Shown piece after piece: positions 58,285 through 64,000 of a stretch of 64,000 nt of DNA. This stretch comes from Desulfoferula mesophila. Its GTDB lineage: Bacteria > Desulfobacterota > Desulfarculia > Desulfarculales > Desulfarculaceae. The stretch spans positions 3,611,501-3,675,500 of the forward strand of contig NZ_AP028679.1 of the NCBI RefSeq assembly GCF_037076455.1. Direction: 5' to 3'. A program made the position numbers and the translations under genes. Positions within the stretch are counted from its first letter, which is position 1. Each line of letters begins with the position of its first letter. The notes below the pieces were generated by a model. That model had not been told where the DNA came from. It did no database searches and saw only the letters and a list, made by a program, of their open reading frames with translations.

Positions 58285-59211
58285 ATGGCCAAGGCGCGCC
58301 ACAAGGTTAAAAGCTTGTCCCAAGCGGTGGGCGAATTGGTGCGCCCCGGCGACAGCGTGGCCCTTTCCGCCGCCCTGGAGGGCTGCATCCCCTACGCCGC
58401 GGCCCATGAGATCATCCGCCAGGGCATCGGGCCTCTCACCCTGGTGGCCCCCATCAGCAACATCAGCATCGACCAGATGATCGGCGCCGGCCTGGCGGAG
58501 CGGGTCATCGCCGCCTGGGTGGGCAACGTGAGCACCGGCATCGGCTACAACTACCGCCGGGCGGTGGAACAGGGTCTGCCCCGGCCCCTGGAGGTGCTGG
58601 ACCACAGCAACTTCTCCATCACCCTGGCCCTGGAGGCCGGAGGCCGGGGCCTGCCCATGGCCGTGGGACGCTCGCCCATGGGCAGCGACATGGCCCTGAA
58701 CAACCCTCAGTTCAAAAGCTTCTCCTGCCCCCACTCCGGCCAGAAGCTCCTGGCCATCCAGGCGCTCAACCCCGACGTGGCCCTGCTCCACGTGCAGCGG
58801 GCCGACGCCCAGGGCAACTGCCAGGCCTGGGGGGCCAGCGGTTTCGCCAGGCAGGCGGCCATGGCCAGCCGCCGGGTGCTCATAACCTGCGAAGAGGTGG
58901 TGGACAGCGAGGTGATCCGCCGCGACCCGGACCGCACTCTGGTGCCGGGGCTGTTGGTGGACGCGGTGTGCGAGGTGCCCTGGGGGGCCCATCCCGCCCC
59001 GGTGCAGGGATACTACGACCTGGACAACCAGTTCTACCTGGACTATGCGGCCGCCACCCGCGAGCCCGCCGGGGCCCGGGCCTGGCAAACCGAGTGGGTG
59101 GACGGGCTGGAAGGCCGCGAGGCCTACGTGGCCAAGCTGGGCGGCGAGCGCCTGCGCTCGCTCATGGTGAGCCACAGCCGCCCCAGCGCGCCGTTGGAGT
59201 ACGGCTGGTGA
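58285..59211 (+). CDS. CoA-transferase subunit A, glutaconate CoA-transferase family
   Basis: 308 residues of the GctA-like family (class I CoA-transferases). Blocks include LVRPGDSVALSAALEGCIPYA, ERVIAAWVGNVSTGIGYNYR, FSITLALEAGGRGLPMAVGR, DVALLHVQRADAQGNCQAWG and the C-terminal LEGREAYVAKLGGERL. It pairs with the downstream beta subunit, whose GTG start lies inside this stop (GTGA), so the two make one heteromeric enzyme. The acid substrate is uncertain; in Bzd-type aromatic degraders related pairs could act on C5-C7 dicarboxylic acids. ATG 58285 follows GGGAGG. Confidence 0.85.
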   Translation: MAKARHKVKSLSQAVGELVRPGDSVALSAALEGCIPYAAAHEIIRQGIGPLTLVAPISNISIDQMIGAGLAERVIAAWVGNVSTGIGYNYRRAVEQGLPRPLEVLDHSNFSITLALEAGGRGLPMAVGRSPMGSDMALNNPQFKSFSCPHSGQKLLAIQALNPDVALLHVQRADAQGNCQAWGASGFARQAAMASRRVLITCEEVVDSEVIRRDPDRTLVPGLLVDAVCEVPWGAHPAPVQGYYDLDNQFYLDYAAATREPAGARAWQTEWVDGLEGREAYVAKLGGERLRSLMVSHSRPSAPLEYGW

Positions 59212-59963
59212 CGGACTACACCCCGGCCGAGATCATGGTGACCGCCGCCGCCCGGCAGATACGCGACGGCGAGGTGGTGTTCGTGGGCATGCGCCTGCCG
59301 CTGTTGGCCTTCATGCTGGCCAAAGAGACCCACGCGCCCCATGCCCTGGGCCTTTTTGAAAACGGGGTGCTGCGCGACCAACCGGCCACCGCGCCCATCA
59401 TCACCATGGGCGACGCGCCCAACCAGTGCGGGGCGCTCAAGGTCTGCGGCCTGGACGAGGTGATGAGCCTGCTCTCGGGCGGGCGGGTGGATCTGGGTTT
59501 CATCGGCGGGGCCCAGGTGGACCAGTGGGGTAACGTGAACACCCATCTGGCCCCCAAGCCGGACGGTAGGGCGGTGCGCCTGCCCGGCTCGGGCGGCGGG
59601 GCGGACATCGCCTGCCTGGCCGGCCGCCTGCTCATCATCATGAATCACGAGCGCCGCCGCCTGGTGCCCCAGGTGGACTATGTCACCTCCCCCGGCTGGG
59701 GGCCCCATCCCGGCTGGCGCGAGGAGCAGGGGCTCACCCGGGGCGGGCCGGCCGCCCTGATCACCTCCCTGGGGGTGTTCAGCTTTCCCCGGGGACGGGC
59801 CGAGTTGAGCTCGGTGCACCCGGGGGTGAACCCGGAACAGGTGGCCCGGGAAACCGGTTGGGAGCTGACCCAGGCGCCCGGGCTGGGAACCACCCCGGAG
59901 CCCACGGACCGGGAACTGGCCATAATCAGGCGCTTTGATCCCAACCGGTTCTGGACCGCCTGA
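59208..59963 (+). CDS. CoA-transferase subunit B, glutaconate CoA-transferase family
   Basis: 251 residues of the GctB-like family. The catalytic Glu is E51 in LFENGVLRDQ, the residue that forms the glutamyl-CoA thioester. Other family blocks are VVFVGMRLPLLAFMLAKETH, APIITMGDAPNQCG, SLLSGGRVDLGFIGGAQVDQ and GNVNTHLAPKPDGRAVRLPG. GTG 59208 overlaps the subunit A stop (GTGA). The enzyme likely moves CoA between an organic acid and acetyl- or glutaconyl-CoA. Downstream lie the DUF2080/GNAT cassettes, then bzdN and bzdO, placing the pair beside aromatic-degradation genes. Confidence 0.85.
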   Translation: MTDYTPAEIMVTAAARQIRDGEVVFVGMRLPLLAFMLAKETHAPHALGLFENGVLRDQPATAPIITMGDAPNQCGALKVCGLDEVMSLLSGGRVDLGFIGGAQVDQWGNVNTHLAPKPDGRAVRLPGSGGGADIACLAGRLLIIMNHERRRLVPQVDYVTSPGWGPHPGWREEQGLTRGGPAALITSLGVFSFPRGRAELSSVHPGVNPEQVARETGWELTQAPGLGTTPEPTDRELAIIRRFDPNRFWTA

Positions 59964-59974
59964 TTTTTTTGGGG

Positions 59975-60003
59975 TTGACAATTTTGGGGCGCTGACCTAT
60001 CGT
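59975..60003 (+). promoter_or_regulatory. Sigma-70 promoter of DUF2080/GNAT cassette 1
   Basis: TTGACA (59975-59980), 17-bp spacer, TATCGT (59998-60003). The operator repeat begins 9 bp after the -10, overlapping the expected start site. Confidence 0.65.
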
Positions 60004-60012
60004 CACAAAATA

Positions 60013-60036
60013 GCTACAAATTAGTCATTTTGTAGC
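60013..60036 (+). promoter_or_regulatory. Operator-like inverted repeat, cassette 1
   Basis: GCTACAA-N10-TTGTAGC, a perfect 7-10-7 dyad. The identical arms and spacer length recur at 61137-61160 in front of cassette 2, in the same position relative to the promoter. Confidence 0.7.
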
Positions 60037-60103
60037 ATAGATTCTTGGACGATTCGCACCAGGATCAGGGCCCCAACCCCAAAACCGCCGAGGCCTCAGG
60101 AGC

Positions 60104-60304
60104 ATGAGCGAAACTGAAAATGCAGCCCGCCGGAAGCGTTCCGGAGCCGAGGAAAAAGCCTCCGATGCCCGTCACAAGGCCAAGTTCGAGGTCTATGGCG
60201 AGGAGATGATCGAAAAGGAGGTCAAGCAAAGCGGCAATTCCGGCAGGGTATACCTGCCCCCGGAGTGGGTTGGCAAAAACGTAAAAATCATCCGCATTGA
60301 TTAA
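60104..60304 (+). CDS. DUF2080/AbrB-like small protein, cassette 1
   Basis: 66 residues. A charged N-terminal tail (MSETENAARRKRSGAEEKAS) precedes KAKFEVYGEEMIEKEVKQSG and SGRVYLPPEWVGKNVKIIRID. The last part has the AbrB/SpoVT-like swapped-hairpin pattern (KxxGNSGRVYLPxEWVGKxVKII) of DUF2080, small proteins that are often found near transposons in other genomes. Here there is no transposase; it precedes a GNAT acetyltransferase gene by 14 bp and follows a promoter with a dyad operator, so it may be the DNA-binding partner of the pair. A near copy is encoded at 61253. Confidence 0.75.
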   Translation: MSETENAARRKRSGAEEKASDARHKAKFEVYGEEMIEKEVKQSGNSGRVYLPPEWVGKNVKIIRID

Positions 60305-60318
60305 AGGCGAGGCGACAA

Positions 60319-60750
60319 GTGCCCTTGAATCTGCGCCCCATGACTCAAGAGGACCTTAGCGAGGTCCAACGCATTCAGGCCCGCATCACCCGGCAGCCGG
60401 TTCCCCAACCCTGGATGGACATGCTGGCCGAGCATGTGGACAATACCTACCGCCTGGGCTACGTGGCCGAGGAAAGCGGCGCGGTGCTGGGTTTCATCCT
60501 GGGTGAGATCAAAATCGGCGGTTTCGGCACCGAGCTGTCCGGCTGGCTGGAGCTGGTGGGGGTGGAGCCCAACCACATGGGCTCGGGCATGGGCGCGGCC
60601 CTGGTGGAAGCCCTGTTCAACGCCCTCCGGGAGCGGGGCGTGCAGGAAATCTACACCGCGGTGCGCTGGGACTCCGGCGACATGCTGGCCTTTTTCAAGA
60701 AGCTGGGCTTTGACCAAAGCGCCTTCATCAACCTTCGCCTGAAAGACTGA
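60319..60750 (+). CDS. GNAT-family N-acetyltransferase, cassette 1
   Basis: 143 residues from GTG 60319 (AGGCGAGG upstream). GNAT motifs: strand and loop VLGFILGEIKIGGFGTELSG, acetyl-CoA pyrophosphate loop VEPNHMGSGMGAALVEALFN (pattern xxGxGxA), and C-terminal EIYTAVRWDSGDMLAFFKKL ending in FDQSAFINLRLKD. The substrate is unknown. It is preceded by the DUF2080 gene in the same transcript. Its near-twin at 61485-61916 shares most residues, including all motifs; differences lie mainly at the termini. Next to bzd genes, a regulatory or ligand-modifying role (compare BadL in Rhodopseudomonas) is conceivable. Confidence 0.85.
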   Translation: MPLNLRPMTQEDLSEVQRIQARITRQPVPQPWMDMLAEHVDNTYRLGYVAEESGAVLGFILGEIKIGGFGTELSGWLELVGVEPNHMGSGMGAALVEALFNALRERGVQEIYTAVRWDSGDMLAFFKKLGFDQSAFINLRLKD

Positions 60751-60956
60751 CCCCCCGTCAACGCGCGGCCCCGGAGCCCCCGTCGGGGCCCGGCTTCGTT
60801 TGTGCGCCAAGCATCGGCCCCCGCCGCGTGGCGGCGGTCTTTTCAGCCTGCCCCCCAAACCGGCCAACCCGGGTGGGCAATCAGTATAACCAATAGATAA
60901 TTAAGTAATTATTCAGCCATTCCCTTGGGGAGGCGGAGTGAATTTGTTTGTTTTGT

Positions 60957-60974
60957 TATGTCATAAATGACATA
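60957..60974. promoter_or_regulatory. Palindrome TATGTCA-N4-TGACATA, site 1
   Basis: A perfect 7-4-7 inverted repeat in an AT-rich stretch; its twin begins 28 bp downstream. A likely dimeric regulator site; the regulator is unknown. Confidence 0.6.
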
Positions 60975-60984
60975 CTTCATTTGC

Positions 60985-61002
60985 TATGTCAAAAATGACA
61001 TA
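60985..61002. promoter_or_regulatory. Palindrome TATGTCA-N4-TGACATA, site 2
   Basis: Same arms as site 1 with spacer AAAA instead of TAAA. It is followed by a T7 run. Confidence 0.6.
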
Positions 61003-61097
61003 TTTTTTTGAAGACTAATATGGAAGGTAATTTCCTGTAATTATTGATTATTGAAGTTTGCACCCGCCGAGCGCCCCTGACGGGGAAAAAATTCCGG

Positions 61098-61125
61098 TTG
61101 ACATCCCCCGCGAGCCCTCTATAAA
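61098..61125 (+). promoter_or_regulatory. Sigma-70 promoter of cassette 2
   Basis: TTGACA (61098-61103), 16-bp spacer, TATAAA (61120-61125). Confidence 0.7.
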
Positions 61126-61136
61126 GTCACATTATA

Positions 61137-61160
61137 GCTACAATCTAGTTGTTTTGTAGC
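61137..61160 (+). promoter_or_regulatory. Operator-like inverted repeat, cassette 2
   Basis: GCTACAA-N10-TTGTAGC, the same dyad as 60013-60036. A further TTGTAGC half-site lies at 61176-61182. Confidence 0.7.
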
Positions 61161-61252
61161 GCTGATGTAACTGCTTTGTAGCTATCGGAAAGGACAATGC
61201 CAAGGCCGAACCGGCCGACGCGCCGCCAAGTCACTCAAGGGAAGAAAACGAC

Positions 61253-61462
61253 ATGGAACCCAAACGAAACCCAGCCAAGCGGCCCGGCCTAGCGGGGCCA
61301 AACGCCGCCCAAAAGCCCGGCGGCTTCAGCGGCAAGACCAAATTCGAGGGCTACGGCGAAGAGATGATCGAAAAGACCGTAAGTCAAAGCGGTAGCTCCG
61401 GCCGGGTGTACCTGCCTCCGGAGTGGGTCGGCAAAAACGTGAAGATCATTCGCCTCAACTAA
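61253..61462 (+). CDS. DUF2080/AbrB-like small protein, cassette 2
   Basis: 69 residues, a paralogue of the protein at 60104. A basic, Pro/Ala-rich N-terminal tail (MEPKRNPAKRPGLAGPNAAQ) differs entirely from cassette 1, while KFEGYGEEMIEKTVSQSGSS and GRVYLPPEWVGKNVKIIRLN are almost the same. The divergence of the tail against a conserved AbrB-like core suggests the core is the selected part. It is followed by the acetyltransferase gene after 22 bp. The ATG follows AAGGGAAG. It lies downstream of a promoter with the same dyad operator plus an extra half-site. Confidence 0.75.
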   Translation: MEPKRNPAKRPGLAGPNAAQKPGGFSGKTKFEGYGEEMIEKTVSQSGSSGRVYLPPEWVGKNVKIIRLN

Positions 61463-61484
61463 AGACCAGACGAGGAGCCCAGCC

Positions 61485-61916
61485 GTGAATTTGCGCCCCA
61501 TGCAACAAAAAGACCTGCCCGAGGTCAAGCGCATCCAAGACCGCATCACCCGCCAGGAGGTCTCCCAATCCTGGGTGGACATGCTGGCCGCGCACGTGGA
61601 CAAAACCTACCGCCTGGGTTTCGTGGCCGAGGAAGACGGCGAGGTGCGCGGCTTCATCCTGGGTGAAATCAAGATCGGCGGCTTCGGCACCGAACTCTCC
61701 GGCTGGCTGGAGCTTTTGGGCGTGGAGCCCAGACTCATGGGCTCCGGCGTGGGCGCGGCCTTGGTGGAGACCCTGTTCGCGGCCCTGTGGGGGCGCGGGG
61801 TGCGCGAAATCTACACCGCCGTGCGCTGGGACTCCGGCGACATGCTGGCCTTCTTCAAGAAGATCGGTTTTGACAAGAGCCCATTTATCAATCTTAGGTT
61901 CGAGCAACCACTTTAG
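61485..61916 (+). CDS. GNAT-family N-acetyltransferase, cassette 2
   Basis: 143 residues from GTG 61485, preceded by GAGGAG. Very similar to the cassette 1 enzyme: VRGFILGEIKIGGFGTELSG, VEPRLMGSGVGAALVETLFA and EIYTAVRWDSGDMLAFFKKI are shared. The C-terminus is RFEQPL rather than RLKD. All motif residues for acetyl-CoA binding are present, so both copies should be active. A duplicated pair, each with its own operator, suggests dosage or divergent specificity. bzdN begins 318 bp downstream. Confidence 0.85.
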   Translation: MNLRPMQQKDLPEVKRIQDRITRQEVSQSWVDMLAAHVDKTYRLGFVAEEDGEVRGFILGEIKIGGFGTELSGWLELLGVEPRLMGSGVGAALVETLFAALWGRGVREIYTAVRWDSGDMLAFFKKIGFDKSPFINLRFEQPL

Positions 61917-62234: not shown

Positions 62235-63362
62235 ATGATCGAAATGTTCGAGGAGTGGTACAAGTCCCGCCACGAATACGCCAAGGAGTGGAAGGACAAA
62301 ACCGGCGGAAAAGTGATGGGCTTCTTCTGCACTTATGTGCCCGAGGAAATCCTCTTGGCCGCCAACGTGTTGCCGGTGCGCATTTTGGGCTCCCACGAGC
62401 CCCAGAACGTCACCGAGCCCCACATTTTCGGCATGTACTGCCCCTTCTGCCGCGACTGTCTGGCTCAGGGGCTGCTGGGGCGCTACGACTATCTGGACGG
62501 CATGATGATCGCCCAGAGCTGCCTGCACATCCGCCAGGCCTTCACGTCCTGGAAAAAGCACATGCCCCCGGAGTTCACCTATTACCTGCCCATGCCCCAT
62601 CAGGTGCAGAGCCCCCGCTCCATCCCCTTCCTGCGCTCGGAGTTGGAGACTTTCAAGGGCGCCGTGGAGCAGTGGGTGGGCAAGGAGATCACCGACGCGG
62701 ACCTGGACCGGGGCATCGAACTGATGAACGCCTCCCGCCAGGCCATGCGCGATCTCTACGACACCCGCAAAAGCGCCAACTCGCCCATGACCGGCCTGGA
62801 GGCCATGTACGCGGCGGCGAGCAATCAATGGATCGACAAGGCCGAGCACACCGCCGCGGTGCGTGAGGCGCTGGCCAAGGAGTTGGTGGGGCGCGACCTG
62901 GGCCTGGGGGACAAGACCCGCCTGATGATCCTGGGCTCCGAGGACGACGACACCGCCTTCGTGAACATGGTGGAGGGCTGCGGCTCGGTCATCGTCACCG
63001 ACGACCACTGCACCGGCAGCCGCTATTTCTGGAACCAGGTGGAGCCCGAGGAAGACCGCCTGCTGGCCATCGCCAAGCGCTACATCAACCGTCCCGCCTG
63101 CCCCACCAAGGACTGGCCCCAGCGCACCCGCCTGGAGCACGTGCGCATGCTGGCCCAGGAATGGAACGTGGCCGGGGCCATCATCATCCAGCAGAAGTTC
63201 TGCGACCCCCACGAGTTGGACATCCCCGAGCAGCGCAAGAGCCTGGGCGAAATCGGTGTGCCCACCCTGTTCCTGGAGCTGGACGTCACCGTGCCGGTGG
63301 GGCAATTCAAGATCCGCGTGGAGGCCTTCCTGGAAATGTTGGCCGAAGAGGATCTGTTCTAG
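62235..63362 (+). CDS. bzdN: Benzoyl-CoA reductase subunit, BzdN/BcrC type
   Basis: A subunit of the ATP-dependent (class I) benzoyl-CoA reductase, which dearomatises benzoyl-CoA. 375 residues. The N-terminal MIEMFEEWYKSRHEYAKEWK is followed by GFFCTYVPEEILLAANVLPV, then YCPFCRDCLAQGL (C69, C72, C75, candidate Fe-S ligands), GSEDDDTAFVNMVEGCGSVI, DDHCTGSRYFWNQVEPEEDR and IIIQQKFCDPHELDIPEQRK. From memory, these blocks match Azoarcus BzdN better than generic 2-hydroxyacyl-CoA dehydratases. ATG 62235 follows TAGGAGG. bzdO is next, and bzdP and bzdQ probably lie beyond the window. Confidence 0.88.
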   Translation: MIEMFEEWYKSRHEYAKEWKDKTGGKVMGFFCTYVPEEILLAANVLPVRILGSHEPQNVTEPHIFGMYCPFCRDCLAQGLLGRYDYLDGMMIAQSCLHIRQAFTSWKKHMPPEFTYYLPMPHQVQSPRSIPFLRSELETFKGAVEQWVGKEITDADLDRGIELMNASRQAMRDLYDTRKSANSPMTGLEAMYAAASNQWIDKAEHTAAVREALAKELVGRDLGLGDKTRLMILGSEDDDTAFVNMVEGCGSVIVTDDHCTGSRYFWNQVEPEEDRLLAIAKRYINRPACPTKDWPQRTRLEHVRMLAQEWNVAGAIIIQQKFCDPHELDIPEQRKSLGEIGVPTLFLELDVTVPVGQFKIRVEAFLEMLAEEDLF

Positions 63363-63398
63363 GGACCACACATTGCTGTGTATCGGGAGGTTTTTAAA

Positions 63399-64000
63399 AT
63401 GGCCAATTACCCCACGGAAACCCTGTTGTCTTGGAGCAAAGCCAAGGAGATCAGGGAGACCTATTACAAAAACTACGCCGCCGCCCACGACAAGGGCGGC
63501 ATCCGCTGGGTGGGCGGAGCCTGGACTTTCGACGCGGTGCCCGCCGGGTTGGGGGGCAACGTCTACTCCCTGACCAGTGAGCCCTACGGCGCTTCCTGCG
63601 CCTTTAACAAGGACTTCTCCACCCGGGCCATGGAGGCGGCCGAGACCGCCGGCTACGCCCGGGACCTGTGCGCCTACATGCGCAACTACTGGGGCTCCAT
63701 CCTCATGGACGAGTACGCCTTTGGCGGCCCCTTCCCCAAGCCGGACTTCATCTGGCAGGACCACATCTGCTGCTCCCACGCCAAGTGGTACCAGGTGGTC
63801 AGCGAGTTGGAGGGCGGCATCCCCATGTTCTGCGTGGACGTGGCGGTGGGCCCGGCGGAGCCCTTCGGGACGCTCACCGACTCCAAGATCGACTACGTGA
63901 CCGGGCAGATCCTGGACGGCATCGAGTGGCTGGAAAAGACCACGGGGCGCACCTACGACGACGAGCTGTTCATCGAGGCCTGTTGGAACGACTTCCGCAG
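63399..64000 (+). CDS. bzdO: Benzoyl-CoA reductase subunit, BzdO/BcrB type (3' truncated by window edge)
   Basis: Paired with bzdN as the catalytic half of benzoyl-CoA reductase. About 200 residues are visible: MANYPTETLLSWSKAKEIRE, then TYYKNYAAAHDKGGIRWVGG, DAVPAGLGGNVYSLTSEPYG, GYARDLCAYMRNYWGSILMD, EYAFGGPFPKPDFIWQDHIC and CCSHAKWYQVVSELEGGIPM. The Cys pair in DHICCSHAKWY and the BzdO-like opening are clear. The ATG at 63399 follows GGGAGG. The frame is still open at base 64000, so the C-terminal half is missing. Confidence 0.88.
   Translation, partial: MANYPTETLLSWSKAKEIRETYYKNYAAAHDKGGIRWVGGAWTFDAVPAGLGGNVYSLTSEPYGASCAFNKDFSTRAMEAAETAGYARDLCAYMRNYWGSILMDEYAFGGPFPKPDFIWQDHICCSHAKWYQVVSELEGGIPMFCVDVAVGPAEPFGTLTDSKIDYVTGQILDGIEWLEKTTGRTYDDELFIEACWNDFR

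Follow-up and report, generated by a model that had tools for sequence, protein, structure and literature searches.

The genome of Desulfoferula mesophila (4,479,191 bp) was examined through a window of 64,000 nucleotides, the whole stretch of DNA analysed here, in which two tandem cassettes at about 59975-61916 each pair a gene of the DUF2080 family with a gene of the GNAT N-acetyltransferase family. In cassette 1, a sigma-70 promoter read from the sequence on the plus strand (59975-60003: -35 box TTGACA, 59975-59980; 17-nt spacer; -10 box TATCGT, 59998-60003) is overlapped at its -10 box by an operator array (60000-60037) and followed on the same strand by DUF2080a (60104-60304; 66 amino acids, with a 40-residue core and a variable tail), a putative MazE/AbrB-like DNA-binding regulator, and, 14 nt further on, by GNATa (60319-60750; 143 amino acids, GTG start). 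Cassette 2 has the same arrangement on the plus strand: a promoter likewise read from the sequence (61098-61125: TTGACA, 61098-61103; 16-nt spacer; TATAAA, 61120-61125), an operator array (61124-61185), DUF2080b (61253-61462; 69 amino acids) and GNATb (61485-61916; 143 amino acids, GTG start). The genes lie where a first-pass annotation had placed them, and both of the promoters that it proposed are present; of the span that it gave (60001-61916) the end is right, but the start is too late, the first promoter beginning at 59975.

DUF2080a and DUF2080b match NCBIfam NF033496 ('DUF2080 family transposase-associated protein') with 74.2 and 66.2 bits (cut-off 22), and Pfam PF09853 with 29.0 and 20.2 bits, respectively above and just below its cut-off of 21.5; GNATa and GNATb match PF00583 with 48 and 41 bits (cut-off 20.7). 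DUF2080 is probably a small MazE/AbrB-like DNA-binding protein, with a basic loop (VKQSGNSGR) that aligns with the beginning of the MazE domain model, the segment that contacts DNA in MazE. The earlier suggestion that an AbrB-like fold replaces the usual ribbon-helix-helix (RHH) antitoxin holds insofar as DUF2080 is not an RHH protein; the fold itself is weakly suggested by sequence similarity to PF04014 that stays under the cut-off. The structure model of the GNAT has an ordinary GNAT fold (pLDDT 86; Z 17-19 to many GNATs) and resembles protein N-acetyltransferases (Ard1, RimI) as much as small-molecule ones. The top 50 GNATs in the fold comparison all have Z scores of 17-19, so that the lack of a toxin GNAT among them is uninformative, and no substrate is indicated.

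Pairing of the two genes was surveyed in 395 evenly drawn Desulfobacterota genomes, with open reading frames as gene calls in the relatives. DUF2080 is present in 57 genomes, 53 of which also carry a close GNAT homologue, defined by a score of at least 139 bits (a line set after the score gap was seen) with the addition of one gene that is cut short where its contig stops. Directly 5' of 54 of the 56 close GNAT homologues, on the same strand and with gaps of 16-63 nt, lies a DUF2080 gene, which is found upstream of none of the 11 next-best GNATs. Adjacency elsewhere, which the first-pass annotation had proposed as a check, is thus common. Conversely, 43 of 97 DUF2080 copies stand alone or beside other genes, and so the GNAT is more dependent on DUF2080 than DUF2080 is on the GNAT. 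The pair is chromosomal and occurs in many families; searches of plasmids and phages returned no copy of it at this similarity, only distant archaeal DUF2080 proteins. Among the latter, copies on haloarchaeal plasmids likewise bear the label transposase-associated, and a protein annotated as hypothetical is encoded by Methanoculleus virus Blf4 (L4768, 24425-24544; H21, H22).

The operator was initially noticed as an identical dyad, GCTACAA-N-TTGTAGC, right after the -10 box of each cassette (60013-60036 and 61137-61160). The dyad is indeed present in both; in its strict form it has only these two copies in the genome, and shuffled windows contain none. In relatives, this self-operator is conserved 5' of DUF2080 genes, and there the dyad proves to belong to an array in which TAGYTA half-palindromes follow one another at 11-bp phase (as in TAGTTACAATG TAGCTACATTT TAGTTATCATG TAGC), beginning within the -10 box; the notion of an isolated simple dyad was therefore discarded. 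In a set of 79 non-identical regions 5' of DUF2080 genes, the spacing of half-sites is 11 bp in 58 cases, 22 bp in 20 and 33 bp in five, and dinucleotide shuffling yields the 11-bp spacing 0.1 times on average and once at most; other distances are near chance, except for 44 bp (three times). TTGACA is located 23-26 nt 5' of the operator in 39 of the 56 regions with a strong array. In D. mesophila, array 1 consists of TAGYTA-like half-palindromes in 11-bp steps (genome-scan E 2.0e-5), and array 2 of about five phased units (E 3.6e-7). The position of the array over the -10 box and start region suggests repression, and the spacing of one helical turn points to dimers bound next to each other along the same face of the helix.

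Sites of this kind are not confined to the cassettes. A sequence-only operator model built from 24 operators (R1) was scanned alongside the same model read backwards (R2) as a control; palindromic sites may score on both strands in either count. In four genomes of the genus, R1 sites lie just 5' of recurrent orthologous genes beyond the pair, the majority of which have the site in at least three of the four: iorA, HGD-D (2-hydroxyacyl-CoA dehydratase/benzoyl-CoA reductase-like), paaK, bamB, an acyl-CoA dehydrogenase, a solute symporter, and a short-chain dehydrogenase/reductase (SDR) with a 6-hydroxycyclohexenecarbonyl-CoA dehydrogenase-like (had) gene. Targets in other families include had of the dearomatizing pathway (TIGR03201, 464 bits; cut-off 339), glutaryl-CoA dehydrogenase (NF045552, 754 bits; cut-off 470), iorA, bamB, an AMP-forming CoA ligase, a CoA transferase and GlcD-like genes. 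Sites 5' of bamB are present at L125, L128 and L282. R1 gave 39 hits in four genomes and 52 in 14 others, whereas R2 gave three in the same 18 genomes.

With a genome called operator-positive if it has an R1 hit at E of 0.1 or lower, 22 of 26 genomes with DUF2080 are positive versus four of 40 without it (Fisher p 8e-10, kinship ignored). The four positives that lack DUF2080 are weak (E 0.024-0.084); they include G100, whose genome is 67% complete and belongs to a genus in which DUF2080 is present in the other members sampled. Genomes with bamB but without DUF2080 are positive in three of 36 cases, and genomes with DUF2080 but without bamB in six of eight. Among DUF2080 genomes outside the R1 training set, by our own bookkeeping, 12 of 16 are positive. 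One genome in which DUF2080 is present and neither its GNAT partner nor bamB was detected (G213) has 16 R1 hits, both strands counted, with sites 5' of a thiolase, HGD-D, a CoA ligase with iorA, an SDR with had, a TRAP transporter, a GlcD-like gene and a succinyl-CoA ligase, which to judge from the genes is much the same regulon as elsewhere. The presence of the operator with DUF2080 even in the absence of GNAT or bamB indicates that it goes with DUF2080 and not with either of the others.

The association with aromatic catabolism extends to gene order. The pair of D. mesophila is flanked on the plus strand by genes of two CoA-transferase subunits directly 5' (58285-59963; the first at 58285-59211, the second at about 59208-59963) and by two HGD-D genes 3' (62235-64000, the second clipped by the end of the window). 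In eight of 18 loci of other families, picked for diversity, the gene directly 3' of the pair is aldehyde-ferredoxin-oxidoreductase-like and has Fe-S genes behind it, which places the pair upstream of bamBCD: the oxidoreductase-like protein is BamB of class II benzoyl-CoA reductase (1264 bits to PDB 4z3w, versus 220 for the next entry). CoA-transferase B is also found 5' of the pair in some other families. Both DUF2080 and bamB occur in 49 of the 395 genomes, DUF2080 only in eight, bamB only in 56 and neither in 282. DUF2080 is within 10 kb of bamB in 31 of 80 named bamB loci, and directly precedes it in Desulfosarcina alkanivorans and D. widdelii; no Geobacter locus is among the named results of the bamB scan. 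Near bamB, genomes that lack DUF2080, and also G215, encode GNATs of another subfamily (L285, 5372-5875; L287, 9396-9899; L277, 824-1306); GNATs seem to be linked to bam genes more widely, and those of the other subfamily are possible relatives of BadL, the GNAT of Rhodopseudomonas palustris discussed below. A TetR-like regulator is divergent from bamB in three genomes without DUF2080 (L297, 11711-12994; L298, 7161-8444; L299, 6559-7857); the occurrence of such a gene next to bamB in Desulfomonile-type genomes, which have no DUF2080, is consistent with a swap of regulators.

The proteins of the two cassettes are strongly conserved except for the DUF2080 N-terminal tails, as had been remarked: identity between GNATa and GNATb is 78.7%, the two 40-residue DUF2080 cores agree at 35 positions and differ at five by hand count, and the tails are unrelated. 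A relative (G005) also carries both copies, and with orthologues at 91% and paralogues at 79-82% identity the duplication is judged from these sequences to predate the split. Both copies are under purifying selection (dN/dS between copies 0.26 for the GNATs and 0.07 for the DUF2080 core). Across members the core is extremely well conserved (GEEMIEK.VKQSGNSGRVYLPPEWVG..VKIIRID), and at two loci (L169 and L170, 6238-6366) an in-frame start gives a 43-residue DUF2080 consisting of the core with no N-terminal tail, so that the divergent tail may be dispensable. In other relatives (L013, 785-1051; L016, 1051-1290) the second DUF2080 copy is without a GNAT, which was lost or never present, and a short unrelated open reading frame (REAQLS.QGW..QFMADEPRLSEAV..) is located 3' of it. 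Two ATGTCANNNATGACAT palindromes, 28 bp apart, lie between the cassettes of D. mesophila (60958-61001) and form a putative site for another regulator. They are found 5' of the second DUF2080 copy only, with two in one relative (G005, L033) and one in another (G015, L021), and perhaps constitute a second regulator's operator that is specific to the duplicate copy.

The probable explanation overall, and the best one for the gene pairing, the phased operator, the regulon and the dependence of the operator on DUF2080 as read from the genomes, is that DUF2080 is an autorepressor and a regulon repressor of benzoyl-CoA-type catabolism, with the GNAT setting the switch. We infer that DUF2080 dimers would align on one face of the DNA at TAGYTA half-palindromes 11 bp, or one helical turn, apart, and that their binding, from the -10 box onwards, should block transcription. 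Repression by DUF2080 would in this way act on the DUF2080-GNAT operon itself and on a dispersed anaerobic aromatic/aryl-CoA regulon that includes bamB, had, paaK, iorA, acyl-CoA dehydrogenases, HGD-D dehydratases, CoA ligases and transporters. Acetylation by the co-transcribed GNAT, probably of a small aromatic amine or else perhaps of DUF2080, would then lift repression in the presence of both an aromatic substrate and acetyl-CoA. In D. mesophila this unit is a tandem duplicate of which both copies have been kept. The link of DUF2080 to operator and regulon is proposed with good confidence, while a GNAT that makes or modifies an inducer, a role drawn by analogy, is put at slightly under an even chance. 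Of the two possibilities raised by the first-pass annotation, a ligand-modifying regulatory module and a GNAT toxin-antitoxin, the former fits best, given the operator upstream of a catabolic regulon.

Several observations weigh against this proposal. The similarity of DUF2080 to MazE/AbrB (PF04014), although found in 18 of 20 members, is weak (best E 0.0089), the DUF2080 profile matches no solved structure in the PDB, and the AlphaFold (AF2) model of the monomer is poor (pLDDT 58). The operator is missing from about 22 of 80 DUF2080 upstream regions, and from three lone DUF2080 genes of D. mesophila itself. About nine of the operator-positive genomes contributed sequences to R1, and the co-occurrence of DUF2080 with bamB (odds ratio 31, Fisher p 8e-25) was computed with phylogeny ignored. 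The operator could belong to some other regulator that is inherited together with DUF2080, and the role of the GNAT is argued from analogy. Of the three lone genes (L002, 1393-1596; L004, 1477-1668; L003, 1498-1635), two adjoin near-identical large subunits of molybdopterin hydroxylases, one of which is followed by ThiS/MoaD-like and ThiF genes, and the third has a metallo-beta-lactamase-fold gene on one side and a dihydrolipoamide-dehydrogenase-like gene on the other.

The alternative that survives best, albeit an unlikely one, retains DUF2080 as the regulator but has the GNAT acetylate enzymes of the pathway (PaaK or another acyl-CoA ligase, for instance), with no inducer made. GNATs that control acyl-CoA ligases are known (RpPat, AcuA), the operator is found at paaK and other AMP-forming ligases, and protein acetyltransferases such as Ard1 and RimI are among the equals in the fold comparison; the fold, however, is common to the whole superfamily and therefore uninformative, and an operon shared with a regulator is more like BadL/BadM. 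It is improbable that a different transcription factor binds the 11-bp operator, with DUF2080-GNAT as its target and not a regulator: such a factor would suit the three lone DUF2080 genes without an operator in D. mesophila, but the operator follows DUF2080 across genomes, including those that lack bamB or GNAT, and the basic loop falls on the DNA-contact segment of MazE. An extension of the favoured reading is speculative and rather improbable: DUF2080 may be the founding family of master regulators for benzoyl-CoA-pathway genes across Desulfobacterota, and its partner may transfer the acyl group of benzoyl-CoA, or of some other aryl-CoA, to lysines in the DUF2080 core; a pathway intermediate would then covalently lift the repressor off DNA.

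A type II toxin-antitoxin system, with the GNAT as a TacT/AtaT-like toxin and DUF2080 as autoregulating antitoxin, is very improbable. The two-gene operon with the regulator first, the self-operator and the near absence of close GNATs without DUF2080 are all as such a system would have them, and DUF2080 (D146; SpnP2) is a validated antitoxin domain against nuclease-type toxins in the NetFlax network (PMC10440598). Against it, the operators stand at a catabolic regulon even where GNAT is absent, DUF2080 is often without GNAT, and the pair is often placed inside bam operons, on chromosomes of many families, with plasmid and phage matches limited to distant archaeal DUF2080s; PADLOC gave no match to DUF2080 and a weak match to GNATa (E 0.0013). 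As the main explanation, toxin-antitoxin was rejected on account of the regulon and of the genomes that have DUF2080 without GNAT. That DUF2080 is a transposon accessory protein and the cassette a relic of mobile DNA, as the family name of PF09853/NF033496 and the like-labelled haloarchaeal plasmid copies might imply, is scarcely credible and was rejected, since no transposase was seen beside the pair in the loci read, the plasmid and phage matches are distant archaeal DUF2080s only, and the copies are under purifying selection.

Sulfate-reducing and syntrophic Desulfobacterota degrade aromatic pollutants without oxygen, and to our knowledge no general regulator has been identified for their class II benzoyl-CoA reductase pathways. 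If the proposal is true, a protein now labelled 'transposase-associated' would gain a name as a transcription factor whose operator can be read, and its target genes could be predicted straight from genomes, metagenome bins included. The statement of the first-pass annotation that no system of this make-up had been described is nearly right; but the logic is that of BadM/BadL, DUF2080 is known as an antitoxin domain, and the pair was noticed in 2026 without interpretation.

That report concerns the 'Magic' cluster of ORM2a, a benzene-degrading member of the Desulfobacterota, in which a GNAT and a 'transposase-associated protein' adjoin bamQ (PMC13101534). This is very probably the same gene pair as that of D. 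mesophila. Neither protein was detected in the proteome, and the authors, who proposed no operator or regulatory role, suggested possible non-participation (PMC13101534); as products of an autorepressed operon, their silence does not contradict the present interpretation. The only literature found to name DUF2080 does so as an antitoxin domain (PMC10440598): it is likewise a partner in a two-gene unit there, but of a nuclease instead of a GNAT, and no catabolic regulon is described for NetFlax. TacAT and AtaRT resemble the cassettes at the sequence level in having a small DNA-binding protein (putative here) 5' of a GNAT and a self-operator; they differ in that their antitoxin is an RHH protein (DUF1778), whereas here DUF2080 occurs also without GNAT and the operator, which in a GNAT type II toxin-antitoxin system would be confined to its own promoter, marks a catabolic regulon. 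AbrB of Geotalea daltonii, for which repression of the anaerobic degradation of aromatics by way of rpoN has been reported, is described as a conventional AbrB with a TGGNA-type motif, and the report mentions neither DUF2080 nor a GNAT partner (PMC11497800).

The closest parallel is BadL/BadM of Rhodopseudomonas palustris, in which the GNAT BadL acetylates aminobenzoates, and the product frees BadM, the Rrf2 repressor of badDEFGAB (class I benzoyl-CoA reductase), from DNA (PMC6191541). Compared by description, and at the sequence level, both systems encode a GNAT together with a repressor (putative here) and have targets that include a ring-reducing benzoyl-CoA reductase. They differ in the repressor (DUF2080 instead of Rrf2), in the 11-bp-phased array and in the reductase, which here is the class II BamB. 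If the proposal is true, ring reduction would have a second repressor-plus-GNAT switch, assembled independently of the first, and the coupling of benzoate catabolism to acetylation for its control would be a recurrent solution; by analogy, the DUF2080-GNAT unit would embody the logic of BadL/BadM with an unrelated repressor and a different class of reductase.

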